From Neptuniibacter marinus (GTDB lineage Bacteria > Pseudomonadota > Gammaproteobacteria > Pseudomonadales > Balneatricaceae), in assembly GCF_001597725.1 (NCBI RefSeq), contig NZ_LUTR01000027.1, positions 1 to 43,516 of the forward strand: 43,516 bases of DNA, read 5' to 3'. Made by a program: the position numbers and the translations under genes. Positions 3,433 through 26,674 of this stretch are shown here, piece by piece. The notes below the pieces were generated by a model. It ran no database searches, was not told where the DNA came from, and saw only the letters and a list, made by a program, of their open reading frames with translations. Numbering within the stretch: position 1 is the first letter of the stretch; the number at the start of each line of letters is the position of its first letter.

Positions 3433-3458
3433 TAGAATTATCCTCTATTACGCACGGG

Positions 3459-8782: not shown

Positions 8783-8904
8783 TAGATTCCCTGCTAATAG
8801 TCGGGGTCAACGGTCGATTTGAGTATAACGAAACGCGACATCAATGATATGGGCTAGGTTTCTATTTAGCAAAACAGCGGATGATGATATGAGCGATGTT
8901 ACCG

Positions 8905-9864
8905 CTATATATCCATTCTGTTTTGAAGGTGTTCAAACTGCTGTTCAATTGTATCTAAGTTTGTGTGCATATAGTCCATAAAGGCTTTCATGGCTGGGGT
9001 CGGATATTTTGATTCTGGGTAAACCACAGACCAAGAACGATTTAATGGGAAACCGTTCAATGAGATAGCGTGAAGATTTTTAAGTCTCAGTTCCGCTAGC
9101 AAGCTGAGCTTAGGCAGAACCGCGACCCCTAAACCTGCGATAACCGCATGTTTAATGGCTGCATTTGAGCCTAATTCCATCACCCCCTTCAGTTTTAAGC
9201 CGTTTTTGAAACAATGATTTTCCAAGGCTAAGCGAGAACCTGAGCCTGCTTCACGTAGTAATAGCTGACTATTAAGAAACTGCTGCGGAGAAATGTTTTT
9301 TTGCGTTATAAATGGATGATTTGCAGGTACAACTGGAACTAGCTCATTGTTTAAAAAAGGTAAAACTTTCAGTGGCCTGTTTTCTGGTACAAGGCCCATA
9401 ATTGTTAAATCATCTCTATTTTCTTCCATACGTTGTAAGGCTGTGGCGCGGTTAACAACGGAAACGGTGATATGAACATTAGGATGTAAAATTGAAAAAT
9501 CTTTGATCAGATAAGGCACTACATATTGTGCAGTACTAACCGCCACGAGTCGGAGATCGCCTGCGACTTTACCTTGTTGTTCGCTCAGATCGATTTGTAG
9601 TTTTTCGAGTTCTCTAAAAATAGATTCAGTGTGTACCGCCAGGGCTTCACCTGCACCTGTAATGTATAAGCGCCTACCAACATATTCAAATAAAGGTGAG
9701 CCAAGGGCCTGCTCTAATTGCCGGATTTGCCCACTCACAGCCGGTTGGGTTAAGCCTAATTTCTCACCGGCTTTACTGTAATTTAGTGAAGAATAAACCG
9801 CATGAAATACCTGAAGTTGCCGGAATGTTAAGCGATTAGCGATGCGAGGTACTGTGTATTGCAT
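8905..9864 (-). CDS. LysR-type regulator of the pyruvate carboxylase genes (PycR-like)
   Basis: A LysR-family transcription factor of 319 residues. The N-terminal winged helix-turn-helix is clear (LTFRQLQVFHAVYSSLNYSKAGEKLGLTQPAVSGQ, in two parts around residues 13-46), followed by a periplasmic-binding-protein-like effector domain from about residue 95. The HTH is close to CbbR-type LysR proteins. It is divergent from pycA with a 115-base gap holding an 18-base palindrome suited to LysR binding. In Pseudomonas aeruginosa a LysR gene (pycR) occupies the same position beside pycA-pycB, so control of those genes is the natural inference. The effector is unknown. Confidence 0.9.
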   Translation of the reverse strand: MQYTVPRIANRLTFRQLQVFHAVYSSLNYSKAGEKLGLTQPAVSGQIRQLEQALGSPLFEYVGRRLYITGAGEALAVHTESIFRELEKLQIDLSEQQGKVAGDLRLVAVSTAQYVVPYLIKDFSILHPNVHITVSVVNRATALQRMEENRDDLTIMGLVPENRPLKVLPFLNNELVPVVPANHPFITQKNISPQQFLNSQLLLREAGSGSRLALENHCFKNGLKLKGVMELGSNAAIKHAVIAGLGVAVLPKLSLLAELRLKNLHAISLNGFPLNRSWSVVYPESKYPTPAMKAFMDYMHTNLDTIEQQFEHLQNRMDI

Positions 9865-9884
9865 AAGCTATATTTCATTCTATG

Positions 9885-9902
9885 TATAAGGTAGACCTTA
9901 TA
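9885..9902. promoter_or_regulatory. LysR-type operator palindrome between pycR-like gene and pycA
   Basis: A perfect palindrome TATAAGGT-AG-ACCTTATA lies 20 bases upstream of the lysR start and 77 bases upstream of the pycA start. It contains the T-N11-A core typical of LysR-family operators. Its position lets one protein repress its own gene and control pycA. Confidence 0.7.
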
Positions 9903-9979
9903 GTAAAACAAAAAAATAACGATTTCTTCTTTTAGTGATAGCCAATTACGCTGTGATTCTCGCTGTTGAGGAAAAGGTT

Positions 9980-11395
9980 ATGTTGAAAAAAGTTTTGATT
10001 GCTAATCGAGGGGAGATCGCCGTACGTATTGTACGAGCCTGTGCGGAGATGAGTATCCGGTCGGTAGCGATCTACACGGAGCCGGATCGTTATGGGCTGC
10101 ATGTTAAGCGTGCTGATGAGGCTTATTCGTTAGGTGATGATCCATTAGCCGGTTACTTAGATCCTTTGCGGATTGTAAATCTAGCCTTAGAGACCGGTTG
10201 TGATGCGATTCATCCAGGCTACGGGTTTTTATCTGAAAATCCTGAACTTGCTCGGTTATGCGAAAAGAACGGTGTAATTTTCATCGGGCCTAAATCGAGT
10301 GTTATACATGGCATGGGTGATAAAACTCAAGCTCGTGACAGTATGCGAGCAGCCAATGTACCGGTAACGCCGGGTTCAGAAAGCAATCTGAGTGGGCTAG
10401 ACGAGGCGTTGGCGCTTGCTAAAGAGATTGGCTATCCCGTCATGGTCAAAGCAACCTCCGGTGGGGGTGGGCGAGGAATCCGTCGTTGCGATAGTGATGA
10501 AGAACTGATCACCCAATTTCCCCGTGTCATTTCTGAGGCAACGAAAGCGTTTGGGTCTGCTGAAGTGTTTATGGAGAAATGTATTGTTGATCCTTTGCAC
10601 ATCGAAGTCCAAATTTTAGCGGATAGCCATGGCAATGTAATCCACCTATTTGAGCGTGACTGTTCTATACAACGCCGAAATCAGAAACTGATTGAGATTG
10701 CACCAAGCCCTCAGTTATCCCAAGAGAAACGGGAATATATCGGTGATTTAGCGGTACGCGCGGCAAAAGCAGTTGGTTATGAGAACGCGGGAACAGTGGA
10801 GTTTTTGATCTCGGGTGATGATGTCTATTTCATGGAGATGAATACGCGTGTTCAGGTTGAGCATACTATTAGTGAGCAAATTACTGGGGTTGATATTGTT
10901 CAAGAACAGCTGCGAGTGGCAGCGGGTTTACCGTTAAGCTACAAACAAGATGATATTCAATTTCGTGGTTATGCATTGCAGTTCCGAATTAACGCGGAAG
11001 ATCCGAAAAATGACTTCTTACCTAGTTTTGGCCGAGTGAGTCATTACTACGCGCCTGGGGGCCCAGGTGTGCGAGTCGATACGGCTATTTATACCGGTTA
11101 TGAGATACCGCCTTATTACGATTCGATGTGTCTTAAATTGGTTGTTTGGGCCCTATCTTGGGATCAGGTGATCGCCCGTGGTCAGCGTGCATTAGATGAC
11201 ATGCGTCTACACGGTATTAAAACGACCGCGGATTATTATCAGCAGATCCTACGCCATCCAGATTTTAAGGATGCCAATTTTAATACGAGTTTTGTGCCGA
11301 ATCATCCAGAACTGCTGGATTACTCCGTGAAACGTCACCCAAGTGAAATAGCTTTAGCTATTGCGAGCGCTATCGCCGCCCATGCTGGTTGGTAA
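9980..11395 (+). CDS. pycA: Pyruvate carboxylase subunit A (biotin carboxylase)
   Basis: Carries out ATP-dependent carboxylation of biotin with bicarbonate, the first half-reaction of pyruvate to oxaloacetate. The ATG at 9980 (471 residues) is preferred over a GTG at 9935 because it follows GAGGAAAAGG and begins with the family start MLKKVLIANRGEIAVRI. The biotin carboxylase order is complete: N-terminal domain, ATP-grasp with glycine loop SGGGGRGIR near residue 160, FERDCSIQRRNQKLIE near 225, and active-site MEMNTRVQVEH near 282. It could in principle be AccC, but the partner is a carboxyltransferase-biotin carrier gene 18 bases downstream, so pyruvate carboxylase fits much better. Confidence 0.93.
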   Translation: MLKKVLIANRGEIAVRIVRACAEMSIRSVAIYTEPDRYGLHVKRADEAYSLGDDPLAGYLDPLRIVNLALETGCDAIHPGYGFLSENPELARLCEKNGVIFIGPKSSVIHGMGDKTQARDSMRAANVPVTPGSESNLSGLDEALALAKEIGYPVMVKATSGGGGRGIRRCDSDEELITQFPRVISEATKAFGSAEVFMEKCIVDPLHIEVQILADSHGNVIHLFERDCSIQRRNQKLIEIAPSPQLSQEKREYIGDLAVRAAKAVGYENAGTVEFLISGDDVYFMEMNTRVQVEHTISEQITGVDIVQEQLRVAAGLPLSYKQDDIQFRGYALQFRINAEDPKNDFLPSFGRVSHYYAPGGPGVRVDTAIYTGYEIPPYYDSMCLKLVVWALSWDQVIARGQRALDDMRLHGIKTTADYYQQILRHPDFKDANFNTSFVPNHPELLDYSVKRHPSEIALAIASAIAAHAGW

Positions 11396-13947: not shown

Positions 13948-14457
13948 TTATAGGTTTCCGCTGCGTATGGCTCGTACTAGAGCTACTAGCTGAGTGATGC
14001 GGGCATTACTCAGTTGTCGATAGTCTAAATAAGGACATAGAATCAAAGGTTGTTGAGTACTGACTGCAAAATGCTCATCTAACCACGTTAGGTGAGCAAG
14101 CTTTAATTGTTTAGCGTAGGCCTTTCCTGCCACTATATGGATGGTATCTGCCTGTTCGAAAGAGGGTGGAGAGAACAGCAAAGCTTCTCTGCTTTCTGCC
14201 TGAAATAGAAAGATGTCGCGGTAATCCTGCCAAGTGAATGTTGCATCAAATTGTTTATTTTCTTGGTAAAGCTCAAATAGAAACTTAGCACTTACATTAA
14301 ATATTTTACGCCAATGGTTACCCGTTGCTTGCCCTATGTAGTGTGCTTCCTCGGGCCGAAGTGCTTTGATGGTTGATAAGTTTTGGTAATCATCAAGGGG
14401 TGGCCTATTAGCAATATAGATAGCAAGGTTAAAATCTTTAGCGCCAAAGCCGACCAT
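13948..14457 (-). CDS. Conserved hypothetical protein, function unknown
   Basis: A 169-residue soluble protein that I do not recognise with confidence. It has no signal peptide or membrane segment. It is rich in aromatic residues; notable stretches are KALRPEEAHYIGQATGNHW near residue 31 and a C-terminal LILCPYLDYRQLSNARI. The sequence is not of low complexity and reads as a real gene, lying between the carbonic anhydrase (convergent, 10 bases apart) and another minus-strand gene. The ribosome-binding site before the chosen ATG is weak, so the start is uncertain. No function is proposed. Confidence 0.7.
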   Translation of the reverse strand: MVGFGAKDFNLAIYIANRPPLDDYQNLSTIKALRPEEAHYIGQATGNHWRKIFNVSAKFLFELYQENKQFDATFTWQDYRDIFLFQAESREALLFSPPSFEQADTIHIVAGKAYAKQLKLAHLTWLDEHFAVSTQQPLILCPYLDYRQLSNARITQLVALVRAIRSGNL

Positions 14458-14516
14458 ACAAAATGTTCCGATGTTAATGAGGAGCGTTATCGTTATTTCA
14501 GGTCAAGTAGAGTAGC

Positions 14517-14867
14517 CTAATGTCGCTGCTCTATCTCATTCATTAAGATTGAATCTGCATCAAGTGTATTAATGGAAACCTCGCCATCAACTGGAATATC
14601 CCCAGTCAACTGTAAAGCGATATAGCGCATACAACAGACTCTTAGAAAGGATGTAAAGTTGCCTAAGTCATGCCCTGCATCGATTGATTCATGATAAAGA
14701 CGGGTAAGCATCTGGGGAATATTCATCTGATCCCGCTGAGCGATATTTTCTAGAGTACTCCAGAAATAATTTTCCAGACGAACGCTAGTAACCATACCGT
14801 CTATACGAAGAGAGCGAGTGCTGCTTTTCCATAACTCAGGATTCGCGTTGATAAATAATTTACACAT
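14517..14867 (-). CDS. Ribbon-helix-helix domain protein
   Basis: A small 116-residue protein. Residues 25-90 fit the ribbon-helix-helix domain seen in many proteobacterial small proteins (strand SVRLENYFWSTLENIA, then helices NIPQMLTRLYHES and NFTSFLRVCCMRYIALQL), so DNA binding as a dimer is possible. The remaining C-terminus is acidic. A Shine-Dalgarno AGGTAG lies about 12 bases before the ATG. No toxin-like partner is adjacent, so there is no direct support for a toxin-antitoxin role. It is 59 bases upstream of the unknown gene on the same strand, and the two may be cotranscribed. Confidence 0.75.
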   Translation of the reverse strand: MCKLFINANPELWKSSTRSLRIDGMVTSVRLENYFWSTLENIAQRDQMNIPQMLTRLYHESIDAGHDLGNFTSFLRVCCMRYIALQLTGDIPVDGEVSINTLDADSILMNEIEQRH

Positions 14868-14920
14868 GAAGAGCGGCTACCTGATCTAAAGGATAGGTGT
14901 TTTATTATAGAGGTTTTTTA

Positions 14921-14952
14921 AAGAGCGACTACCTTAAGGGGTAATCGCTCTT
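14921..14952 (-). terminator. Stem-loop after the DJ-1/PfpI gene
   Basis: An inverted repeat with 12 paired bases and one mismatch (arms 14921-14933 and 14940-14952, core AAGAGCGA/TCGCTCTT) starts 5 bases after the DJ-1 gene's stop codon. Only three T follow on the minus strand, so it is a weak or RNA-protecting terminator. Confidence 0.5.
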
Positions 14953-14956
14953 AGTC

Positions 14957-15526
14957 TTACTTATTTAGTAAAGCGATAAACTGAGATAGCCATGCTGGAT
15001 GAGCAGGCCAAGCAGGGGCTGTTACTAAATTCCCATCAGTAATAGCGGCGTCGATCGCTATCTCTGCATAAATCCCACCGGACTGGTTTATTTCAGGCAT
15101 ACAAGCGGGATAGGCGGAGCAGTTTTTCCCTTTTAATACGTCAGCGGCTGAGAGTATTTGTGCGCCATGACAAACCGCAGCGACTGGTTTGTTCGTTTCA
15201 AAGAAATGCTTCACCATTTTTAGAACATTAGGATTAAGGCGTAAATATTCAGGCGCCCGTCCACCTGGAATAACTAAAGCATCGTAATCGTCTGGCTGAA
15301 TATCGGCAAAAGAGGCATTCAGGGTGAACTTATGGCCAGGCTTTTCGGTATAAGTTTGATCTCCTTCAAAGTCGTGAATTGCTGTTGCGACAGTGTCTCC
15401 CGAAACTTTATTTGGGCAGACCGCATCGACGCTGTGACCGACGGCTAAAAGTGTTTGAAAGGGCACCATTGTTTCGTAGTCTTCAGTGAAATCACCGGTG
15501 ATCATCAGAATTTTTTTATTGTTCAT
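14957..15526 (-). CDS. DJ-1/PfpI family protein
   Basis: A 189-residue member of the DJ-1/PfpI superfamily (type 1 glutamine-amidotransferase-like fold). The nucleophile elbow AVCHGAQ puts Cys119 next to His120, an acidic residue sits at Glu15 (GDFTEDYE), and the GGRAPEYLR segment around 88-96 is typical of the YhbO/PfpI branch and near relatives. Members act as deglycases, glyoxalases or hydratases in stress protection; which applies cannot be told from sequence. A good ribosome-binding site GGAG precedes the ATG. It is divergent from the response-regulator gene across a 446-base gap containing palindromes. Confidence 0.88.
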
Positions 15527-15661
15527 GGTTTGCTCCGTATGAATTTAGGTTTATCTCTTCGCACAAAATAACAGGCATCAGATCAGAGGAGGTATTAGAG
15601 GGTTACTACGTGGTTTTATGGTGTAAGGGTAAGTACGGGGACGATATACGGTGAATCGATG

Positions 15662-15729
15662 TCGTTTAATTATTAATAACTACGTTAGTATAAAAAAACT
15701 GTAGTTACTTATTAAACGATCGTTTTAAT
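15662..15729. promoter_or_regulatory. Palindrome cluster upstream of the DJ-1 gene (possible TetR-type operators)
   Basis: The 446-base gap 15527-15972 has no gene. It contains a long imperfect inverted repeat, arms 15662-15683 and 15701-15719, sharing TCGTTTAAT and TAACTAC blocks around a 17-base loop. Overlapping its right arm is a near-perfect 19-base palindrome ATTAAACGATCGTTTTAAT (15711-15729). The half-site CGTTTAAT thus occurs three times. Such AAACGATCGTTT dyads are common TetR-family operators, but no tetR gene is in the window. Confidence 0.5.
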
Positions 15730-15880
15730 GTAACAAATAGGCTTTATTTATCAGATAATTAGTGGTTTTTACTTTTCTACAAAGATTAGATCTTGAAAAG
15801 AGTAACTAAATGCGAGAGTCTATGGCAGGGCTGATTTACTATAATAATAGGTAGTGTATGGATAATCAGATTAGGCAGAC

Positions 15881-15959
15881 AGATCTCAAACAAAACCTTT
15901 TTATGCTAAAAGGTTTCACTAGGGTGTTCTCTCTTCAGACTCATCGTTCCTTGAGATCT
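15881..15959 (+). promoter_or_regulatory. Structured leader of the response-regulator/TPP-enzyme operon
   Basis: Perfect 9-base arms AGATCTCAA (15881-15889) and TTGAGATCT (15951-15959) enclose a hairpin AAACCTTTT/AAAAGGTTT (15893-15901 and 15908-15916, six-base loop) just before the start at 15973. A TATAAT sits at 15840-15845. It does not match the c-di-GMP-I or TPP riboswitch consensus as I know them. Confidence 0.45.
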
Positions 15960-15972
15960 AACCAGAATAGCT

Positions 15973-18456
15973 GTGAGCAATATGACGGGTAATCTTCAGC
16001 TATTACTGGTTAATGGTGATCTTGAACAATCGGAGACACTATCTACTTATTTAACAGAAAATACTGGCTTTAATGTTATTGTGGCACGCTCAGGTACTGC
16101 TGCGGTTGGAATGTTAAAGCAGTTACGAATTCATTGTGTTGTTAGTGATATTTATTTAGAGGGACTAGATGGTTGGCGATTAGCCCGTATGGTTCGTTCA
16201 GGCATATTTAATTGTAGTGCCGATATTCCTTTTATTATTGTTTCCTCTACCTGGTGTAAGCGCATTGCTGAAAAAACAGCTCGTGAGTTCGACATCGACC
16301 ATCTTTTACCTTTCGAACAGTACCCCCGCCTTAAAGAATTATTGGAACAGCCAGCTGCTCTTCATCGGGAATTACGTAAAGATAGGATTTTAGCTATAGA
16401 GGATACGGCTGAGACTGCACACCTTGTACAGAGAATATTACAACAACGTTTTGAAGTTGATATAGCCTCAGATGGTATCAGTGGTTTAGCACAATGGCGT
16501 GAGAAAAAGCATCCAATTGTTCTACTTGATGTGATGTTGCCGGGCATGTCGGGCCCTGAAGTTATGGAGCAGATATTAGCTGAAAACCCTGCGCAAACTA
16601 TTGTAATAATGACGGCTCATGGCACTATGGATTTGGCCGAGAGTTTAGTGCTACAAGGTGCCGCTGACTTTATTAGCAAACCGTTCCAAGCTAATCAATT
16701 ACGTAAAGTGTGTGAGATCGCGGCACATAGAGAAGATTTTCTTATCAGTAATGAGCAGTTTGCAGAGACGGTTGCTCATCTGGAAGAAAGTAAAGAGGCA
16801 CTGGAGAGTTTAGCGCAAGAGCACAGGAATATTCTTGATAACCTGACTACCGGTGTTTTAGAACTTGATAGCCAAGGGCGTATTGTTTTTGTGAACAAAG
16901 CTTGGTTACAAATGATAGGTGAAACTGAATTTAGCGCTTTGGGTAGTGACTTTATTGATGTTGTGTATATAGACCCATTAAGTTCGACACATGAGATTAA
17001 GCATGCGCTTACCCGTATTATTGCCAAGCCGAGTGAACGTTTTCGACTCGAATTTAAAATTAAAGATAAGTTTAACGAGGCGATTTGGGTTGAGGCTCGT
17101 TTCAATGGAATGCAGCGTAAAGGGCAAGCGCTGTCAGTTTTTGTAGCGGTTGATGATATATCGGCTAGACGAAGAGCTGAACAGCGCCTAGAACATTTAG
17201 CGATGCATGATAGTTTGACGGGGCTACATAACCGTTACTTCTTTGATAATGAGTTAATGCGCGTGGCAGCTTTTGCTCGTTATAGCCAGATCCAGTATGC
17301 ATTGCTGTATATAGATTTAAATCATTTCAAAGCGATCAATGACACCCAGGGGCATCAGAAAGGCGATATTGTTCTTAAAGATGTCGCCGAGAAATTACAG
17401 CAGCGTATGACAGAAACAGAAAGCTTGTTTCGTATCGGAGGTGATGAATTTATTCTCCTTTTAAGTGATACCGATTCACAACAGGCTTATGATATTGCTA
17501 TACATATTTGCAAGCTGATTGAGGAGGAGCAATATCAGTTTGATGATCAGGTTTTTAAAGTTAGCTGTTGTGTAGGTATCAGCTTGATCGATGGCAGTCT
17601 TGAGAAGCCACAAGATTATTTACAGCGAGCGGACATCGCCTTATATGTAGCTAAACGTTATGGCCCAGGTGGTGTTCATTTACATACTGAACAGGATCAA
17701 GAGGGCGATGATGTACGCTTGAGTATGCACTGGTTGTATACCGTAAGGCACTCCATTGAACGGGATGATATCGTCCTTTATTATCAACCGGTTTATCACA
17801 TCCCCACTGGTACTATTGCTTATTATGAGGCGCTTGTACGTTTAGTGATTGACGATAAACTTGTGTATCCGGGCGAGTTTATTTCGGCTCTTGAGCGTTT
17901 TCAGGAAGCGTCGTTATTGGATAAGCATGTTATATCGAAAGCGATAAAAACCTTAGCGGATTATCCGAGACTGCCTAAGCTTGCAATAAATTTATCGGCT
18001 CAAGCCTTCCATAATGAGCAACTCGTACCCTTAATAGAGCAAAAGTTAGCTGAGTATAATGTTGATCCGGCGCGGGTTATTTTTGAGCTGACAGAGAGTG
18101 CGAGTTTAACCAATTTGAGTGCGACCCAAGCTATGGTGAAAACTTTAACTGAAATGGGTTGTGCTTTTTCTATCGATGACTTTGGCACCGGCTTTAGTAC
18201 CTTCTCTTATCTAAAATCATTCCCTGCGGAGACAGTAAAGATAGATGGTTCTTTTGTTAAAGAGCTGAAGAATAGTGATATTGATCGTGCCTTAGTCCGC
18301 TCTATTAGAGACGTGGCATGGACGCTTGGAAAAATGACAGTGGCTGAATTTGTTGAAGATCAAGAAACGCTCGACCTATTGAAAGAGTTTAAGGTTGAAT
18401 ATGCCCAAGGTTATTTTCTTGGTAAACCCGCCCCCATAGAAGCTTTAGGTATCTAG
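15973..18456 (+). CDS. REC-REC-PAS-GGDEF-EAL response regulator (c-di-GMP enzyme)
   Basis: A cytoplasmic 827-residue protein expected to make or break cyclic-di-GMP under phosphorelay control. Domains in order: receiver 1 (9-125), receiver 2 (137-250), a short coiled linker, PAS (285-400), GGDEF (405-570) and EAL (585-825). Receiver 1 has Asp59 but lacks the acidic pair (NGD) and the conserved Lys. Receiver 2 is complete (Glu143-Asp144, Asp186, Thr214, Lys236). GGDEF is intact at 489-493 without an RxxD inhibitory site. EAL is intact at 619, with NLSAQ, ELTE, DDFGTGF and VAEFVE, so phosphodiesterase activity is likely. The start is GTG, with an ATG three codons later possible. The opposing operon's kinase has no receiver and is the obvious candidate partner. 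Confidence 0.92.
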   Translation: MSNMTGNLQLLLVNGDLEQSETLSTYLTENTGFNVIVARSGTAAVGMLKQLRIHCVVSDIYLEGLDGWRLARMVRSGIFNCSADIPFIIVSSTWCKRIAEKTAREFDIDHLLPFEQYPRLKELLEQPAALHRELRKDRILAIEDTAETAHLVQRILQQRFEVDIASDGISGLAQWREKKHPIVLLDVMLPGMSGPEVMEQILAENPAQTIVIMTAHGTMDLAESLVLQGAADFISKPFQANQLRKVCEIAAHREDFLISNEQFAETVAHLEESKEALESLAQEHRNILDNLTTGVLELDSQGRIVFVNKAWLQMIGETEFSALGSDFIDVVYIDPLSSTHEIKHALTRIIAKPSERFRLEFKIKDKFNEAIWVEARFNGMQRKGQALSVFVAVDDISARRRAEQRLEHLAMHDSLTGLHNRYFFDNELMRVAAFARYSQIQYALLYIDLNHFKAINDTQGHQKGDIVLKDVAEKLQQRMTETESLFRIGGDEFILLLSDTDSQQAYDIAIHICKLIEEEQYQFDDQVFKVSCCVGISLIDGSLEKPQDYLQRADIALYVAKRYGPGGVHLHTEQDQEGDDVRLSMHWLYTVRHSIERDDIVLYYQPVYHIPTGTIAYYEALVRLVIDDKLVYPGEFISALERFQEASLLDKHVISKAIKTLADYPRLPKLAINLSAQAFHNEQLVPLIEQKLAEYNVDPARVIFELTESASLTNLSATQAMVKTLTEMGCAFSIDDFGTGFSTFSYLKSFPAETVKIDGSFVKELKNSDIDRALVRSIRDVAWTLGKMTVAEFVEDQETLDLLKEFKVEYAQGYFLGKPAPIEALGI

Positions 18457-18484
18457 TATCTAAGGGGTTTGCCGGAGTCGCAAA

Positions 18485-20272
18485 ATGTTGGAGATCGAAC
18501 TCCCTATTGATATTAATCATAACTCTCTAGATCAGAATTCGCGGGAGAGTAATCAAGCGACCTCTCTCGGTGAAGGCGCTTGTTATAGTGATTTACTGGT
18601 AGAGTATCTCAATCAAATTAATGTCAAAAAGGTCTTTGGTGTCCCTGGGGGGGCGATTGAACCCTTTTTTGATGCCGTAGCTAGACAGTCGCATGCAAGA
18701 CAGATAGATATGGTTATCGCTCGGCATGAAGCTGGAGCGGCATTTATGGCTGATGGCTATGCGCGAGAAGTTCACTCTCTCGGTGTGTGTTGTGCCACGA
18801 CAGGGCCGGGGGCGACAAATCTTATCACCGGCGTAGCAAGTGCCTATGCGGATAATATCCCGATGTTGGTTATTACTGCTCAAACGGCACTTCCAAAGTT
18901 TGGCAAGCAAGCTTTGCAGGATAGCTCTAGTACCGCAATTGATACTGTAGGTATGCTGCGTTATTGCACTAAATTTAATACCTTGATCTCTCACCCTGAT
19001 CAGTTCGAACATGCGCTTATTTCCGCTATTATGGCGGCAAATACAGCACCAAGAGGCCCTGCACATCTGAGTGTGCCTTCTGATATTTTTAACACCCCTC
19101 TTGTTGAGAAACCTATAGTTCGCTCCCATGCTTTGCGTCAACATTTGGTGACTAGTGACCCAGCTAGCCAAGACAAACTGCGACAAGAGCTCTTAGCGGC
19201 CAATAGAGTTGTGATCTTACTAGGTGACAACTGTTATCAGGCCAGCAAACAGATTATTCAATTTGCTGAAACCTTTAACATCCCTGTGATTAGTGGGCCT
19301 ATGGGGAAACGTTGGATTGATGAGCGACATCCGTTGTATTGTGGTGTCTTTGGTTTTTCTGGCCATGATCAGGCTAGAAAGCTTGTTATGGATCAGCAGT
19401 ATGATTTGTTGTTAGCGGTAGGTACCCGATTAAGTGAACTAGGAACTAATGGTTGGACGCCCTCCATACTTAATAACAAGCTGATTCATATTGATAGTAT
19501 CTCGCAGTATTTCAATCAGTCGAGTATGGCCCGACTTCATGTGTTGGGCCCTCTGCCGCAATTATTTGCGAAATTAACGACTCAACTTCAGGGTAAGGAA
19601 CGCGTTGACCGCTGGTGGGAGTGTGATACTCGTACAGAGACAGGGCTTTTAAACCAAGCAGAAATGGATCTTGCGCGTAGCTCCGATCTACCCTTAAAGC
19701 CGCAACGCCTATTTCATTATTTAGGTGAAACACTTCCTGAGCAAACAAGAATTTTTATTGATGCAGGTAATGCTTGGGCTTGGGCGACTCATTATATGTT
19801 GCGCAGTGATGATCAAGGTTATTACCGTATCGCTATGGGTTATGGTTCTATGGGCTGGGCTATAGGCTCATCTGTAGGGTCTGCAATTGCCAACCCTAAT
19901 GCGCCCCATCTATGTATTACTGGAGATGGTAGCTATCTTATGAGTGGTCAAGAAATTACGGTGGCTCAGCAGCAAGGTGTGCCTTTAGTGATGATTATCT
20001 TAAATGATAGTGCGCTAGGAATGGTCAAGCATGGCCAACGTTTAGGAGGGGCTGAGCCTATAGGTTTCGCGCTTCCGGTCATCGATTATGCCGCGATGGC
20101 CTCTTCAATGGGTATCCAGAGTATAGGTATAGATTCGTTTGACGCGCTAGATAAGCTTGATTTTTCCGCGCTATTTTCTCGTTCGGGTCCCACATTAATT
20201 GATGTAAAAATCGACCCTGAAGAGGAGCCGCCCATGGGCGAGCGGATTAAAGGATTAGCCTCGAGTAAGTAA
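18485..20272 (+). CDS. Thiamine diphosphate-dependent enzyme, acetolactate synthase-like (orphan)
   Basis: A 595-residue protein of the acetolactate synthase/pyruvate oxidase family. The three domains are clear: an N-terminal pyrimidine-binding domain with catalytic Glu82 (RHEAGAAFMADGYAR), a middle domain, and a C-terminal diphosphate domain with GDG at 480-482 and Asn507. It ends with DPEEEPPMGERIKGL, an acetolactate-synthase-like tail. No small regulatory subunit (ilvN/ilvH) or reductoisomerase gene is near, and about 30 extra residues precede the fold, so a housekeeping IlvB role is unlikely. It lies 28 bases after the c-di-GMP gene, behind GGAG, and ends 13 bases from the convergent citrate-synthase-like genes. 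Its donor and acceptor substrates are unknown. Confidence 0.85.
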   Translation: MLEIELPIDINHNSLDQNSRESNQATSLGEGACYSDLLVEYLNQINVKKVFGVPGGAIEPFFDAVARQSHARQIDMVIARHEAGAAFMADGYAREVHSLGVCCATTGPGATNLITGVASAYADNIPMLVITAQTALPKFGKQALQDSSSTAIDTVGMLRYCTKFNTLISHPDQFEHALISAIMAANTAPRGPAHLSVPSDIFNTPLVEKPIVRSHALRQHLVTSDPASQDKLRQELLAANRVVILLGDNCYQASKQIIQFAETFNIPVISGPMGKRWIDERHPLYCGVFGFSGHDQARKLVMDQQYDLLLAVGTRLSELGTNGWTPSILNNKLIHIDSISQYFNQSSMARLHVLGPLPQLFAKLTTQLQGKERVDRWWECDTRTETGLLNQAEMDLARSSDLPLKPQRLFHYLGETLPEQTRIFIDAGNAWAWATHYMLRSDDQGYYRIAMGYGSMGWAIGSSVGSAIANPNAPHLCITGDGSYLMSGQEITVAQQQGVPLVMIILNDSALGMVKHGQRLGGAEPIGFALPVIDYAAMASSMGIQSIGIDSFDALDKLDFSALFSRSGPTLIDVKIDPEEEPPMGERIKGLASSK

Positions 20273-20285
20273 GCCGCTGTTTAAG

Positions 20286-21110
20286 TTAAGGGCTTGGCAA
20301 ATCACGAGGCGCTACACCTGTGTAGATAATATCTTGGCACTGTAAAGGCAAATAACTTCCCGCTGTATTATCTGCCGCTTCGGCATAACAGGCGTGGACT
20401 CCAGCACTTACCCAAAGCGCCATAATGCGGCTTAGATCTGGATCAGAAAAACCTTGGTCGGCAAGAAAGGCTGCCATATATCCCCCAAAGTTAATCGACT
20501 CACCTTCTTGAATCGTTAAATATTCACTGATCTCTAGTGCTAGGCTCTCATGGGGGCCTATCTCGAAACCTAGTTCTCTGCTTAAGCGATACATTGCTGT
20601 AACACGCTCATCCCCTTTAGCTATAGGGCGGGCAAAGCCAGGGAGACTGTGATTATTCCCTTGTCTGTTTTGAATAAGTTCAAATAGCGTTTGCCCTTGA
20701 TTTTTATCTTCTCGGGCTTGTTGAATGAATTTTAGACAAGGGGTGATAACGCCTGGGCCATAAAGTAATGCATCTGATGCTTGGATTCCTGCACTAATCG
20801 CTGCGACAGGGCGTGTTTTTACCGATCCGGCTAATGCCGCTATTTGATTGCACCATATACGTGAATCGGGCCAGCTCAAACAGCTAAAACAGTTTTCCAA
20901 CCAAGTGGCTAAGTTTTTATCAGGCAGACGCCCCGTGGTATTTAAAACCAGCAGTTGGAACCAAGATATTTGACCGATTAGGTCGTCCATCATCGAGTAT
21001 CCGTGGTTATAGACTGCATCGCCGATCTTCCAGCCCCCTTTATTGCTGGTGATTTTATTTCGATGTTGATCCCAATGCTTCCAGCAGGGATCCGTCTTAT
21101 TTGATGACAT
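20286..21110 (-). CDS. Citrate synthase-fold protein lacking canonical catalytic residues (second of pair)
   Basis: A 274-residue protein resembling the short citrate synthase/citryl-CoA lyase family. The match is anchored by LPGFARPIAKGDER (156-169, family pattern PGFGH-x-DPR) and SINFGGYMAAFLADQGF (206-222, family pattern NVDGAxAALLxDLGF). All three catalytic positions differ: the HGG His region reads YGPGVITPC (116-125), the GFGH His is Arg161, and the NVD Asp is Gly209. It overlaps the end of the upstream paralogue by 14 bases, suggesting translational coupling and perhaps a heteromer. It may be a pseudoenzyme, an acyl-CoA sensor or an enzyme with changed chemistry; the sequence cannot decide. 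Confidence 0.78.
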   Translation of the reverse strand: MSSNKTDPCWKHWDQHRNKITSNKGGWKIGDAVYNHGYSMMDDLIGQISWFQLLVLNTTGRLPDKNLATWLENCFSCLSWPDSRIWCNQIAALAGSVKTRPVAAISAGIQASDALLYGPGVITPCLKFIQQAREDKNQGQTLFELIQNRQGNNHSLPGFARPIAKGDERVTAMYRLSRELGFEIGPHESLALEISEYLTIQEGESINFGGYMAAFLADQGFSDPDLSRIMALWVSAGVHACYAEAADNTAGSYLPLQCQDIIYTGVAPRDLPSP

Positions 21111-21921
21111 AGTTTTCCTCGGCTAGGAAGGGCATTTCAGTAATCGGGCTATTCGATTTTTCTGCTGCTTGTGCTGCAATACCTGGTGCACAGGCTATTT
21201 GGAAAATAAGTTCCCCTGTATAGGGAGTAAAACCTAAGTCGAGCAGACATGCGCCAGCTAGGCCTGCGATTCTCCAGCTTAACGTTAGCTCTTCATCTAT
21301 ACCGTCCAGCATCGCGTGCGCCCAACGTAAGTGAGGGCCCGGAGAACAGTGATTAAAAACGTTATCGGCGATTTTTTGTGTATAGTTATCAATGCTGCCA
21401 TAGAAGGTACCAAACCCTGGCGCTGGAATAATGTCTCCTTCATCGGTTTGAGCTACGAGTATTTTGGCTGCTTGGGTTAATGCTTGTGCGCCCATTCGAG
21501 GTGTGACTTGCTGATTATTTTGTAGGTATTTCATCGCTTGGAACACCTCATGGCTACCTCCTTGTTCACCACTGAGTACGTTTAGTGACAAAGGAAGAAT
21601 GTGGCTAACATGAGTTTTACTTACAGCGGCATTCATTGCAGCTCGACAGGCATTATGCCGAGGTCCGGGATGAATAAGGCTTGTTAATAAATGTTCAAAT
21701 AGCTGATGCTGCTCGGGAGTAGGTAGTTCACCCTGAAACATAAGGAAGAGCACTTCGGTATAGCTGCGATTATTAATTAAAGCGAGGTGTTCGTAACCGT
21801 GGCAGCGTGCCTCACTTACAGTGTATGGATTGGTTGTTGAGGGTGTTTCCTGCCAGATGGATGTGCTAGTTTTTTCACAGAAGGCATCGTTACGGCTATG
21901 TTCATCTACTTTTTTTACCAT
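21097..21921 (-). CDS. Citrate synthase-fold protein lacking canonical catalytic residues (first of pair)
   Basis: A 274-residue citryl-CoA-lyase-like protein. Family landmarks in order: HGYEHLALINNRSYTEVLFL (41-60, with GELPTPEQ after it), LSGEQGGSHE (116-125), APGFGTFYGSID (167-178) and a helix IAGLAGACLLDLGF (218-231). At the three catalytic positions of citrate synthase it has Gln120 in place of His (a His124 lies nearby), Thr172 in place of His, and Arg217 (SWR) in place of the Asp of NVD. It is the fourth gene of the minus-strand run, 28 bases after the TonB receptor gene and overlapping its paralogue. Divergence from the sister copy is large, so this is an old duplication. Confidence 0.8.
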   Translation of the reverse strand: MVKKVDEHSRNDAFCEKTSTSIWQETPSTTNPYTVSEARCHGYEHLALINNRSYTEVLFLMFQGELPTPEQHQLFEHLLTSLIHPGPRHNACRAAMNAAVSKTHVSHILPLSLNVLSGEQGGSHEVFQAMKYLQNNQQVTPRMGAQALTQAAKILVAQTDEGDIIPAPGFGTFYGSIDNYTQKIADNVFNHCSPGPHLRWAHAMLDGIDEELTLSWRIAGLAGACLLDLGFTPYTGELIFQIACAPGIAAQAAEKSNSPITEMPFLAEENYVIK

Positions 21922-21949: not shown

Positions 21950-24076
21950 TTAGAAGCGATACTCTATTTCAGCCCAAATACTTCTGCCTTCGAGTGGGTA
22001 ATCATCAGGAATGGAGCTGCTTGAAGGTTCGCTTGCATAAGTATCAAACAGATTTTTTACGATCAATGCGAGTCGTACCTGTTTTTTTAACATGTCGTGT
22101 GTGACCTTCGCATTGACCCAATGGTAATCGCTGACCTTAGCTCTATTGTCCCCTTCCTCTCTTTCTCTAGAGCCTATCCAATAATGTTGGAGAGAGCCTG
22201 ACCAGTTAGGTGACAGTGTGTAATTTAAGTCTATATAAGTGCTATGTTGAGGTACGTTAGCAACAGGCATATTGGTATCTGCATTTGTTGCATGTTGGTA
22301 GGCATAGTTGGCGTTGAGGCTGAGCTGTGGATTAATTTTCCAATCCCACTCAAGTTCAGCGCCGTAACCATCTTGATTACCTATATTTTGATATTGGATC
22401 ATACTCCCGGTGGTTACCGTATCAATAAGGTCTGTGGCGGTATAACTGTATAGACTGAGTCTTAGGTTGGTATCGAAATGAGGGCGATAATCAAAGGCTA
22501 ATTCATAGGTCTCGATCTCTTCCGGTTTTAAGTCAGGATTACCCAAAGCCGCTGGATTATTAATTAGATGTTGTTCACTGAAAGAGGGTGCACGGAACGC
22601 TGTGCCGTAAAGTAGGCGGGTTGTTAAGTTGTGTTGAGTAAGCCACACCAAGGCCAGTCGAGGGTTGAGGGTGTTACCAAAATCTGAATAGTTATCCCAG
22701 CGTAAGCCGGCCGTAAATGACCAGTCATTATTTAACTGCCACTGATCCTGGGCTGACAGAAAGTATGCAGTTCTTCGTTGGGGTTGCAGATAGATATCGG
22801 CACTACCGCTTACGTTAGTCAGTGTTCCGTCTACTGTACCTTCTGAGCCATCGATAACACCGGGGCCAAAGTTTTTATACTCTTCAGTGCGGATCTTGTC
22901 TTGGCTCCAGCCTGATGCAATCCTTATAGTGTGATTATCGTAGCCTGAATAGATACCGGCGAGCTCTAAACGTGTAGTTTCAGCTAGGGAGTAGGGGTTG
23001 CCTATATACCCATCAGTAAAGGTGACAAGGCCGGAAAAGGGGTCAGAAAAGGCGTTTCCATCACTCCCAATCGGTAAGGCACTACCTTCTGGGAAAAGTA
23101 AGAAGTAAGAGTCACTAACCGTTCTCAGGTAAGATAAATCAGCTTTGAAATTGAAATGATTTGTTAGATCTTTGTCATAGTTAAGATGAGTTAGAAACTG
23201 TTCTGCATTTTGATAACCGGTGGAGTCTATTGCGAGAGATCCCCCTTGGCCGACCCCTGCGCTATCCTGCTTCCAATACCAGTTTTTCCAAGACCAATTA
23301 CCTAGTGATAGATCAAGTTGTAGATTCGTGACGTCATAGCCCGTTTGTAAGGCGTTAGGGGCTTCGGATGCACTGGTTCCGTAGAGGTCATCGAAGGTTG
23401 ATTGTAGGTCTGTATTTACAATGCGGCCACTATCTCCATCACTGGTTTGATTGTCGAGTGAAAATGAGACGGAGAAGTCATCCTCAACAAATCCTTTTCG
23501 TAGCCAAGTGTCTCTACTGTCAAAACTGCCAACACGTATACCCGCTGCACCTTGTTGGTTTTCTGCTGCCGTGCGGGTAATGATATTGATCACGCCGCTA
23601 AAAGCGTCAGCGCCATAGACCGCAGACCCTGGGCCTCGAATAACCTCTATACGGCTGACATTGCTTACCGGCATGCGAAAGGTAAAAGCAAGGCCACCGT
23701 TGTAGTTATGTTTTAACTCAATACCGTTAAGTAAGATTAATATCTGTGGGTTGAAGCCTGTTTGTATTCCTCGGACTGAAAGTACGGGGTCTAGGCGGCT
23801 TAAATCGGATGGCATTAAGTGTAGGCCGGGTATACGCTCTAAGACTTCGAACAGGTGGGTTACACCCATAGATGAAATCGTTTCTGCGTTAATAACACTG
23901 GCTACTGAGGGCGCTTTGCTGATCGGTGTATGTGTTCCTGTAGCAATACTAACTAAGGCCTCCTCGCCAAAGAAATCTGCAAATTCGCTTCCTGGGGCGA
24001 AGTTGTTCTCTTCAGCCGCAGTAACCTGGGCAAAGAGAGATGTTAGCAGTGTGAGTATGCTTAGCCTTTTTTTCAT
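21950..24076 (-). CDS. TonB-dependent outer-membrane receptor
   Basis: An outer-membrane beta-barrel of 708 residues taking up an unknown ligand with TonB energy. The ATG at 24076 is chosen over an upstream TTG because a signal peptide starts there (MKKRLSILTLLTSLFAQVTA). The plug domain is clear: EALVSIATGTHTPISKAPSV, then ERIPGLHL, LSVRGIQTGFNPQILILLNG and RIEVIRGPGSAVYGADAFSG. The C-terminus ends in the barrel's typical aromatic residue (IEYRF). From memory, receptors with this FFGEEALVSIATGT start often lie beside ABC_sub_bind proteins and sensor kinases or GGDEF proteins, as here, so a role in sensing is possible. Confidence 0.9.
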   Translation of the reverse strand: MKKRLSILTLLTSLFAQVTAAEENNFAPGSEFADFFGEEALVSIATGTHTPISKAPSVASVINAETISSMGVTHLFEVLERIPGLHLMPSDLSRLDPVLSVRGIQTGFNPQILILLNGIELKHNYNGGLAFTFRMPVSNVSRIEVIRGPGSAVYGADAFSGVINIITRTAAENQQGAAGIRVGSFDSRDTWLRKGFVEDDFSVSFSLDNQTSDGDSGRIVNTDLQSTFDDLYGTSASEAPNALQTGYDVTNLQLDLSLGNWSWKNWYWKQDSAGVGQGGSLAIDSTGYQNAEQFLTHLNYDKDLTNHFNFKADLSYLRTVSDSYFLLFPEGSALPIGSDGNAFSDPFSGLVTFTDGYIGNPYSLAETTRLELAGIYSGYDNHTIRIASGWSQDKIRTEEYKNFGPGVIDGSEGTVDGTLTNVSGSADIYLQPQRRTAYFLSAQDQWQLNNDWSFTAGLRWDNYSDFGNTLNPRLALVWLTQHNLTTRLLYGTAFRAPSFSEQHLINNPAALGNPDLKPEEIETYELAFDYRPHFDTNLRLSLYSYTATDLIDTVTTGSMIQYQNIGNQDGYGAELEWDWKINPQLSLNANYAYQHATNADTNMPVANVPQHSTYIDLNYTLSPNWSGSLQHYWIGSREREEGDNRAKVSDYHWVNAKVTHDMLKKQVRLALIVKNLFDTYASEPSSSSIPDDYPLEGRSIWAEIEYRF

Positions 24077-24133
24077 AACGCCTACTTTAAATAACCCCAA
24101 GTTATTGTAGTGGCTGGTGAGTGAATTACCAGC

Positions 24134-25705
24134 TTAATACTTTTCTTCATTGGGTATAGTTATCCAGAATGTAAAAACACTACCCTTATTGGGTTTGCTT
24201 GATACAGTGACGGAACCTCCCATCATTTCGGCATAGTGTTTTGCTATAGCCAGTCCTAGCCCGGTGCCTCCATACTTGCGTTTTACACTTCCGTCGACCT
24301 GTTTGAACTTATTAAATACTTGAGCAAGCTGTTCTTTAGGAATACCTATTCCTGTATCGGCGACTTCCCAATAAATTTTATTTTGCTCCAGATAGCACTT
24401 AAGAGAGATCTCTCCCTGCTCTGTGAATTTGCAGGCATTTGATAATAGGTTGAGTAATATTTGCTGAATCTTTTCTTTGTCTACATTTAAGTAAAGATCC
24501 CCAGAAGGGTGGTCGATGGTGAAACGATTTTTATTTTTTGCGGCCAGTGGACGTATAGTATTTTCAGTCTCTTTGATTAGATCGGTGAGTGAGCATTGCT
24601 GTGCGCTCAGATCCATTTTACCGGCTTCACATTTAGCTAAATCTAAGATGGCGTTAATTAGGTTTAAAAGCCGCTGTGAAGAATGTAAGGCTGAATTAAG
24701 GTCCTCAACTTGAGCGTCAAATTCAGGATGTATTTCAAGCTCTTCTGTAACCAATTCAATATAACTAGTTACAGCTTGTAGAGGAGTGCGTAGTTCGTGA
24801 CTGATATTGGCTAGGAACTCCGATTGAGTCCTCATGGCAACTAATGCTGTATCACGCGCGGCGACTAGTTCATGAGTACGGACTTCAACTTCAGATTCAA
24901 GGCCTGTGTTTAATTCTATGAGCTTGTTTTCTTGCTGCTCTAAGGAGTTCATCATGGCATTGAAGCTTCTCGCCATTTGTTGAACTTCTCTAGGCCCTTC
25001 TATTTCTGCAACTAGATGATCGCCTGAGGTTTGTGCCTCATTCATCGTTTCAGATAGTTGGGAAAGGGGGCTTGTTAGATGACGAAGTCCTCTATTTAAG
25101 AGCCAGATTAACAGTATGGATATGATTAACGTGACGAGCAGATTGTAGATGATGAGGTTATTAATCAGCTTAACAAGGGACTCTTTGGACACTTTAATCA
25201 TAACGTAACCAAGTAGCGATTTTGTATTGTTCTCTAAACTGAATTCTTGAGCACCGCTATCGTTGCTTAATGGATCGGTATTTTCCAAGTAGACGGGGGC
25301 GGCAATAAACCAAGCGCTTCCTGTATTTTTGACTGTCGTGGCGGCGTTAATCGGGAACCAAAGATCTAAGTCGGAATTTTTCCAATCGACATCCCCTTGC
25401 TTAAGCAATAGATCTAGGCTGTCTGAGAAAATAGCGACACCAGTAACATCGTTGAAGCCTAGTACCTGGGATAGAGCGTCATGTGCATTTTCTTTGCTTG
25501 CAGTGATCAAGGAGAGCACGCTGAGATGGGCTAAGTTATCAGCTATGCGTAATGAATTTTGCTGCAGAACTTGTCGGGATTGATTATACGAGACCCATAC
25601 CGCGGTGACTGAGCTGGTAATAGAGAGTAGGCAGATAGATACAATCAGAAACAAGAGCAGTTGCTGCCAAATACTTTTATGTCTGTGTCGACCAAAAAAT
25701 ATCAT
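24134..25705 (-). CDS. Membrane sensor histidine kinase (HAMP-HisKA-HATPase)
   Basis: A 523-residue inner-membrane kinase. Membrane helices lie at about 16-38 and 185-203, with a periplasmic sensor region of about 145 residues between them. A HAMP domain (204-260) leads into a short coil, then HisKA with His303 (NISHELRTPLQ) and an ATPase domain with LLNLLSNACKF, VADTGIGIP and GTGLGLAIAKHYAEMMGG. No receiver domain is attached, so the phosphoryl group must pass to a separate regulator; the REC-REC-PAS-GGDEF-EAL protein encoded about 6 kb away is the nearest candidate. It lies 9 bases after the ABC_sub_bind-type gene and 57 bases before the TonB receptor gene, consistent with one operon. Confidence 0.92.
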   Translation of the reverse strand: MIFFGRHRHKSIWQQLLLFLIVSICLLSITSSVTAVWVSYNQSRQVLQQNSLRIADNLAHLSVLSLITASKENAHDALSQVLGFNDVTGVAIFSDSLDLLLKQGDVDWKNSDLDLWFPINAATTVKNTGSAWFIAAPVYLENTDPLSNDSGAQEFSLENNTKSLLGYVMIKVSKESLVKLINNLIIYNLLVTLIISILLIWLLNRGLRHLTSPLSQLSETMNEAQTSGDHLVAEIEGPREVQQMARSFNAMMNSLEQQENKLIELNTGLESEVEVRTHELVAARDTALVAMRTQSEFLANISHELRTPLQAVTSYIELVTEELEIHPEFDAQVEDLNSALHSSQRLLNLINAILDLAKCEAGKMDLSAQQCSLTDLIKETENTIRPLAAKNKNRFTIDHPSGDLYLNVDKEKIQQILLNLLSNACKFTEQGEISLKCYLEQNKIYWEVADTGIGIPKEQLAQVFNKFKQVDGSVKRKYGGTGLGLAIAKHYAEMMGGSVTVSSKPNKGSVFTFWITIPNEEKY

Positions 25706-25714
25706 CTATATGCC

Positions 25715-26674
25715 CTAAAATCCGGATTGAGGAAAAGTCTGATAAAAAGAGTTTTTCATTGTTGCGTTATATTCTAAGCCTAAGTGGGAGGCGGTTCTCA
25801 AGTTCACACCCACTTGTCGAGTTAGGGATAGTTCTACACCAGGACCTTTCTCTCCCTTCTTCATATTTGCCACCATACGGGCCAAACGGGAACCATCCTG
25901 CATATTGTCGGGGAAAAGGGTAAAAAGGAAACCACGACGGACATGGCCTGGTTTACTCGAGAAAACGACAAAGTTTCTATCCCAAGATTCGCGCAGTAAT
26001 AGGGGCAATATGACGTTTTCGTTAGCAGTGGTCGTATCTAACGGTAACCAAATAGCATCAGTCAGGCTGTCCGCTTCTTGCAATATTGTTTGATAGCGCT
26101 CAACGGCCTCACCTAAATCAGCAACTTTAGCGGTAATGAGCTTTAGCTTCTTTTTGGCGGCTGCGCGTTGTGCTTTTTCAATCAGCCATTCACTTTGGTC
26201 TGTGTATACCACGTGAACTTGGCGAGTGTTTGGCGATAGTATTTTTAATTGATCAAACAGGTTTGCAGGATCTGCGATTAAGCTGACACCAGATATATCG
26301 TTGGGTCTTATAGGTAGAGCCCCCGTAACAAAAGGGTATTTTCCTCGGAGGGTATTGTTGTATGCATAACCTCTGCGTCCTAAAGTGATAACTCGGTCAA
26401 CACCATCGGTGTCCATTTTGTTTAGCAGGGCATCGGGAGCTAGAGGTTTATCTATAGAGTATTTAATCACTTTCCCTACATGCTGAGTTTCAATCCCTTC
26501 AATTATTTGTTCAAAAACCTGTTGGTAGGGTGGTGGTAGATCGGGGTATATAACCGCAAGCGTTGCCGCCGCTAATGGATAGCTGAGAAAGGTTAAGCAT
26601 AAGGCTATACAGGGCAAGAGCCATCGACAGATGAGTTGCTTAGGTCTATAAAAAATCCGTTTAATTCTTGCCAT
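25715..26674 (-). CDS. Periplasmic ABC_sub_bind-family protein, probable sensor partner
   Basis: A 319-residue exported protein with a long N-region and a hydrophobic core (about 17-36, ending ALA-like PLAAA), then a two-lobed binding-protein fold of the ABC_sub_bind family (segments AVIYPDLPPPYQQVFEQI, RVITLGRRGY, NDISGVSLIADP, DAIWLPLDTTTA). No ABC permease or ATPase gene is nearby, so transport is unlikely. Being the first gene of the run, directly before the histidine kinase, it could instead bind a ligand and present it to the kinase. The ribosome-binding site before the chosen ATG is poor. Confidence 0.82.
   Translation of the reverse strand: MARIKRIFYRPKQLICRWLLPCIALCLTFLSYPLAAATLAVIYPDLPPPYQQVFEQIIEGIETQHVGKVIKYSIDKPLAPDALLNKMDTDGVDRVITLGRRGYAYNNTLRGKYPFVTGALPIRPNDISGVSLIADPANLFDQLKILSPNTRQVHVVYTDQSEWLIEKAQRAAAKKKLKLITAKVADLGEAVERYQTILQEADSLTDAIWLPLDTTTANENVILPLLLRESWDRNFVVFSSKPGHVRRGFLFTLFPDNMQDGSRLARMVANMKKGEKGPGVELSLTRQVGVNLRTASHLGLEYNATMKNSFYQTFPQSGF

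Follow-up and report, generated by a model that had tools for sequence, protein, structure and literature searches.

Two co-inherited proteins of predicted citrate synthase fold with replaced catalytic residues, encoded in a conserved TPP enzyme and TonB receptor cassette

The closest described relatives of the two proteins considered here, A and B, are the citryl-CoA lyase of Hydrogenobacter thermophilus (PDB ID: 6hxp) and the corresponding module of ATP-citrate lyase. These resemble A and B in size (about 270 residues) and in predicted fold, and have in common with B the glycine of the GxGH motif, the asparagine of N-x-D and the arginine of D-P-R, the last of which is paired with Arg169 of B in two alignments and stands three columns away from it in the alignment of the catalytic site. 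Unlike 6hxp, A and B have the catalytic His/His/Asp residues replaced, are two unlike proteins instead of one, and are found in a cassette together with a TPP enzyme, a TonB receptor and a sensor. An incomplete triad is also seen in five short proteins of the PRK06224 type (L220, L221, L224, L225 and L227; judged from a sequence pattern and, in four cases, by eye), but these keep the GxGH histidine, lack both HGG and N-x-D, and branch elsewhere in the tree.

The TPP-dependent enzyme encoded beside the pair is nearest to BbmA (8x3x), CsmA (8x3z) and acetolactate synthases, but misses the AHAS cut-off. BbmA (E = 4e-85) and CsmA (E = 4.1e-81) are the nearest solved sequences, and no paper on either as a TPP enzyme was found in the open-access literature searched. 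The logic of the sensing genes is presumably analogous to that of autoinducer-2 sensing by LuxP/LuxQ, where we take a periplasmic binding protein and a histidine kinase to read a small signal; the protein families are different, and the cassette adds a TonB receptor and candidate synthesis genes. No description of the cassette itself was found in the open-access literature searched, although a paper elsewhere could exist. Passages of PMC3751524, PMC7522526 and PMC2864759 that name citryl-CoA lyase consist of rows in tables or a comment about carbon fixation, and have nothing on the cassette.

Citrate synthase is a textbook catalytic fold; in the present case two diverged copies have lost its machinery, and one of them has fixed another set of residues. 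The pair has stayed together, and for the most part with the TPP enzyme, across a number of proteobacterial lineages and in some further phyla. Should the cassette indeed produce and detect a compound, this would amount to a new use of the citrate synthase fold and to a previously unknown metabolite and signalling route, with bearers among marine bacteria, iron oxidisers, cable bacteria and magnetotactic bacteria.

The gene pair, its predicted fold and its descent

The window, the whole 43,516-nucleotide stretch of Neptuniibacter marinus DNA that was analysed, carries the genes of A and B side by side (Table 1). A GAGGAAA stretch precedes the ATG of B and is located within the 3' end of A. A sequence-only reading of the window had given the length, coordinates and strand of both genes and their short overlap, all of which are borne out by the sequence. 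The nearest named record is Neptuniibacter sp. 1_MG-2023, with 99% identity over B.

Table 1. Location of the cassette features in the window
Feature	Coordinates	Strand	Remarks
Response regulator	15973..18456	+	Two REC stretches, PAS, GGDEF, EAL; adjoins the TPP gene; recurs in some loci
TPP-dependent enzyme, acetolactate-synthase superfamily	18485..20272	+	Glu82 and GDG motif present; distinct from housekeeping AHAS
Protein B	20286..21110	-	274 aa; citryl-CoA-lyase fold (predicted); fixed remodelled site Tyr117, Arg161, Asn207; Gly209 in the Asp column
Overlap of A end and B start	21097..21110	-	14 bp
Protein A	21097..21921	-	274 aa; citryl-CoA-lyase fold (predicted); His/His/Asp sites are Gln120/Thr172/Ala219
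TonB-dependent outer-membrane receptor	21950..24100	-	ATG at 24076 gives a signal-like start
Sensor histidine kinase	24134..25705	-	sCache_4, HAMP, HisKA, HATPase_c
ABC_sub_bind (PF04392) protein	25715..26674	-	N-terminal hydrophobic stretch; no adjoining permease gene in the listed ORFs

By sequence, A and B are only marginal members of the citrate synthase superfamily. The match to the Pfam profile PF00285 lies above the cut-off of 27 for A (30.7 bits, E = 2.3e-07) and below it for B (22.2 bits, E = 8.2e-05), and both proteins score far below the cut-offs of the NCBIfam PRK06224 citryl-CoA lyase models (at best 74.6 bits against 212 for A, and 62 bits against 245 for B). These models were matched by all 81 B members scanned, with a best E-value of 1.8e-20; bit scores were available only for the first of them. 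Among solved structures, 6hxp is the best relative of both proteins (E = 6.4e-11 for A and 6.2e-10 for B). The single-chain AlphaFold2 models (pLDDT 94.1 for A and 90.9 for B) have the fold of the superfamily, as predicted structures, and Foldseek returns 6hxp as the top match of each, with TM values of 0.72/0.77 for A and 0.77/0.82 for B. The profiles and the predicted structures thus support the initial placing of both proteins with the short citrate synthase/citryl-CoA lyase fold.

The pair recurs in other genomes. Among 57 near relatives, window included, matches at E < 1e-20 to A and to B coincide in 11 genomes, in every one of which the two genes are neighbours and keep their order. In a sample of 321 genomes of the class, B reaches 130 bits, a threshold set at a gap in the score distribution, in 36 genomes; A is found in 35 of the same 36, and the two genes are adjacent in 33 of these 35 (counts and adjacency were read by eye from printed rows). 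At the looser limit of E = 1e-5 the same sample gives B in 40 genomes and A in 136, the A matches being mostly short and lying in frames of ordinary citrate synthase length. The sole genome of the 36 with B and no detected A is G234. The two genes lie on different contigs in G252, and in G192 A is found with the TPP gene about 516 kb from B (loci L203 and L204); B there has an IS66 transposase gene close by, and A a gene belonging to the same cluster, which suggests a rearrangement. Weak single relatives of A or B (39 to 73 bits) occur outside the cassette in G245, G147, G056 and G323; no TPP or TonB matches were found in the stretches around them, and they were left out of the counts.

Comparison of the window with Neptuniibacter pectenicola, the one pair informative for this measure, gives dN/dS values of 0.046 for A and 0.030 for B, with dS near saturation (3.3 and 3.8). 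The 99%-identical strain differs by three synonymous changes and one nonsynonymous change in A, and by five and two in B, which are too few to weigh much. Decay of the pair was rejected on account of its recurrence across the near relatives and the 321-genome sample, together with the low dN/dS. The sequence-only reading had called the genes conserved and coupled rather than decaying, and the co-occurrence and adjacency in the class sample agree with it; other genomes with the same pair are indeed found, and both uniqueness to this genome and relaxed selection are contradicted by the distribution and the dN/dS values.

On a wider scale, one genome from each of 84,980 species was scanned for B with one peptide pattern, which gave 253 relatives. 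The best 80 of these were kept, and comprise 57 Pseudomonadota, 13 Thermodesulfobacteriota, 3 labelled Myxococcota, 2 Nitrospirota, 2 Acidobacteriota, 1 Bacteroidota and 2 without a phylum; the single Bacteroidota relative is on a 4.3-kb MAG contig and is possibly misbinned. A was found in 81 of 85 loci, and in all 81 A-B pairs of this first locus set it lies upstream of B on the same strand. In a tree of 82 rows built by a quick method, A forms one clade (support 99) and B another (support 100), both apart from citrate synthases and citryl-CoA lyases. The two clades split in parallel into subclades (support 90 for A1 and at least 96 for the others), with long branches that make the placings unsure. 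On these alignments, A and B are two old, distinct and co-inherited clades. Spread on plasmids was rejected, as B had no tblastn match among 72,556 plasmid records.

Catalytic sites of the two proteins

To locate the canonical positions, the A and B rows were aligned with seven short relatives bearing His/His/Asp. In A of the window these positions are occupied by Gln120, Thr172 and Ala219. The initial assignment of Gln120 and Thr172 stands; Arg217, which had been taken for the Asp site, falls in the column of the asparagine of N-x-D, and the HMMER alignment, as read, agrees on Ala219 as the Asp column. In B the HGG stretch reads YGPG (Tyr117-Gly118, with no histidine), the histidine of GxGH is replaced by Arg161 and the aspartate by Gly209, exactly as first described. 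The site alignment places Gly118, not Tyr117, in the column of the HGG histidine; there is no histidine at the site either way. Neither window protein has any of the three canonical residues in these sequence alignments.

The absence of all three residues holds for both window proteins, but it is not a general trait of A. The first histidine is retained in 48 of the 82 rows of A1, the window's branch, in 1 of 22 rows of A2 and in none of the 4 beta-type rows; the window's own lineage has glutamine there. The column of the second histidine holds Ser or Thr in 70/82 A1 rows, Pro in 20/22 A2 rows and His in 1/4 beta-type rows, and in the Asp column Thr, Pro or Ser predominate across the relatives. 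Since the site of A is variable, and one catalytic histidine is present in those 48 rows, some members of A may have kept part of the old chemistry.

The substitutions of A vary, and those of B are fixed. The B alignment has 117 rows, of which 115 are distinct (two records are duplicated, L212 being the same as L110 and L213 the same as L114), and excludes rows of the second set below 80 bits or 200 residues, including the broken B of L210. Eleven positions are identical in 117/117 rows: Pro81, Arg84, Trp86, Asn88, Tyr117, Gly118, Gly158, Arg161, Arg169, Asn207 and Gly237. Cys241 and Arg269 are kept in 116 of the 117. A catalytic His or Asp is found at the canonical sites in none of the rows, the Asp column being occupied by Asn, Ala, Gly, Leu, Val, Thr, Ser or Cys. 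The site of B is, as its alignment reads, remodelled and not eroded, and its invariant arginine residues suggest an anionic ligand.

It is hardly credible that A and B only seem to lack the catalytic residues through misalignment and are in fact an ordinary citryl-CoA lyase or citrate synthase. The predicted fold is the same and the first histidine persists in many A1 rows, but the complete lack of His and Asp at the sites of B, the scores far under the citryl-CoA lyase cut-offs and the separate citrate synthases of the genome all speak against it. As part of the explanation favoured here, A and B would no longer carry out citrate-synthase chemistry.

The TPP enzyme and the surrounding cassette

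The TPP enzyme has the three domains of its superfamily (PF02776, PF00205 and PF02775), and E82, D481 and N507, which we take to be the catalytic glutamate and residues of the TPP motif, are found in at least 95% of 84 rows. Its score against TIGR00118 is 312.5 bits, below the AHAS cut-off of 538.35, and it is not the housekeeping AHAS. A bona fide AHAS is encoded elsewhere in the genome, on contig C31 (862.1 bits), as are two citrate synthases; replacement of the normal citrate synthase or AHAS by the cassette proteins was rejected because both are encoded elsewhere.

The content of the cassette was counted, as profile matches within 9.5 kb, in the 42 loci where B is flanked by 9 kb or more on both sides. 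All 42 have A, 40 have the TonB receptor, 38 the TPP enzyme and 30 the PF04392 binding protein. The matches missing for the TPP enzyme (4 loci), the receptor (2) and the binding protein (12) may be missed genes, as the genes of the relatives were called by a simple ORF script; A itself is missing from the gene maps of L195, L198, L202, L206 and L208, yet was detected there by other searches. L115, one of the 4 loci without a TPP profile match, has the TPP enzyme in two overlapping frames at 8250-9100 (BLAST), from a broken gene or a sequencing error. The window kinase was matched by BLAST in 47 of 85 loci and the GGDEF/EAL regulator in 43 of 85, some of the matches being about 25% identical and possibly paralogues.

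The TPP and A genes, or the B and TPP genes, overlap in some loci, and in L198 (G093) a continuous frame of 886 residues (7776-10433) holds a full TPP enzyme followed by A, which is a natural fusion, in a single case, if the draft is right. The link to the neighbouring TPP enzyme, made by the sequence-only reading, is upheld by this fusion and by the census; the wider cassette, with its TonB receptor, binding protein, histidine kinase and c-di-GMP regulator, had been missed.

The same genes are kept together at a distance. A second, distant clade retains the TPP enzyme, A, B, the TonB receptor and the binding protein in most loci, and in many of these TPP, A, B and TonB form one gene run with the binding protein adjoining. 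The order is TonB-A-B-TPP-binding protein in all four beta-type loci, where the genes touch or overlap, by 1 to 4 bp from TonB through TPP, and a histidine kinase follows the binding protein in both of the two scanned. The gene beside the binding protein is a histidine kinase in L191, L193, L201, L275 and L278 (Pfam, five of five scanned). In L193 (G206) the binding protein is followed by a 1364-residue protein (14375-18469) that combines kinase, receiver, GGDEF and EAL, a fusion that ties the sensor to c-di-GMP.

A few loci depart from these arrangements. The cassette of L210 (G090) looks broken, with TonB, TPP and B as fragments. Between TonB and B there are a transposase, a cohesin/TSP3-repeat protein and one gene without a match in L114, and an Hcp, a phosphoribosyltransferase-like protein and a DprA-like protein in L122; none of these was counted to the system. 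Genes for ribosomal L25, PRPP synthetase and YchF lie near B in L195.

The ties between the pair and the TPP enzyme bear on two alternatives. According to the first, A and B are non-catalytic regulatory subunits of the TPP enzyme, which bind an organic acid or acyl-CoA and act as a switch or scaffold in the manner of AHAS small subunits. The absence of the canonical catalytic residues from the window pair, the fusion of A to the TPP enzyme, the retention in B of the asparagine of N-x-D and several arginines, and the lack of an AHAS small subunit among the neighbour families identified are all consistent with such a role; the eleven invariant positions of B are more like those of an active or strictly ligand-specific site, and there is no evident reason for two unlike proteins, so that we consider this reading rather unlikely. 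The second has A and B as a heteromeric enzyme that performs new chemistry on the citrate synthase fold without dependence on the TPP enzyme, the cassette doing no more than collect successive steps, and is very unlikely. It is compatible with the Tyr/Arg/Asn set fixed in B and with the 4 of 42 loci that have A and B and no TPP profile match, but is opposed by the TPP-A fusion and by the overlapping TPP-A or B-TPP genes.

A candidate make-and-sense system

A crude hydropathy test finds membrane segments in the binding protein and the kinase, and none in the TPP enzyme, A or B. The last three look cytoplasmic by this measure, and by Pfam and hydropathy the receptor, binding protein and kinase belong to the envelope. 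No inner-membrane permease was found among the neighbours scanned and no exporter among the neighbour genes identified, many neighbours and neighbour families being without identification. With cytoplasmic-looking enzymes, a receptor and sensor in the envelope and no permease identified, the simplest reading is that the enzymes of the cassette make what the receptor and sensor recognise. Judged by gene content, the ligand would be self-made and bound by the cassette's own receptor or sensor.

From the conservation of the pair, the loss and remodelling of its sites, the cassette and the predicted fold we infer the following course of events. A and B would assemble into a heteromer and act together with the TPP enzyme encoded beside them. 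That enzyme would make a carbanion from a 2-oxo acid, and the pair, chiefly B through its invariant Tyr/Arg/Asn, would hold an anionic acceptor or product. The product is presumably a small molecule, for which an acyloin-type compound is a natural guess with such a TPP enzyme, and may sometimes be reduced by a neighbouring SDR. It would then exit the cell, and the cognate TonB receptor would return it to the periplasm, where it may be a ligand of the PF04392 binding protein, with the histidine kinase relaying its presence to c-di-GMP or another output. As a whole, a heteromer that works with the TPP enzyme, with a product recaptured and sensed by the cassette, is the best explanation we can offer, and we hold it at somewhat less than an even chance. 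The broader proposal is of a new and widespread signalling (or metallophore-like) system of Gram-negative bacteria that works through a small molecule: the compound would be made by a TPP enzyme together with a citrate synthase-fold heteromer of re-invented site, recaptured by the cassette's own TonB receptor and sensed by a binding-protein/kinase pair linked to c-di-GMP. We consider this somewhat less probable again.

The receptor and sensor could also serve a catabolic or scavenging cassette, where TonB imports a compound, the binding protein and kinase sense it, and the TPP enzyme with A and B degrades it. TPP enzymes can also cleave C-C bonds, the receptor is present in 40 of the 42 loci and the sensor is accompanied by a periplasmic binding protein. 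An ABC-type ATPase family is found in 5 of 85 loci (one member scanned) and, in the second set, an ABC-F-like family (two members scanned) in 7 of 34; the ABC-type ATPase genes, present near this minority of loci, leave room for an uptake step into the cytoplasm. We nevertheless consider degradation unlikely, as neither an inner-membrane permease nor a catabolic gene set was seen among the neighbour families identified, and several of the optional genes resemble tailoring enzymes.

With regard to these optional genes, an SDR is present in 13 of 42 loci and, under the favoured make-and-sense reading, could tailor the product. Of 85 loci, 6 have a sulfotransferase family and 5 an O-methyltransferase family, a single member having been scanned from each family; a carbamoyltransferase and an Asn synthase occur in one locus each. 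The SDR and the other tailoring genes are confined to a minority of loci and may be bystanders. As regards regulation, Fur control was rejected, as no match to a 19-base consensus was found at up to 3 mismatches, and so were riboswitches, the window having no Rfam match at gathering scores.

In L043 a carbamoyltransferase gene (1918-3681) lies immediately downstream of A and B. In the second clade, the chemotaxis genes MCP, CheB, CheR and CheW are found near the cassette of L186, L187, L188 and L191, which may fit a sensing role or be due to chance.
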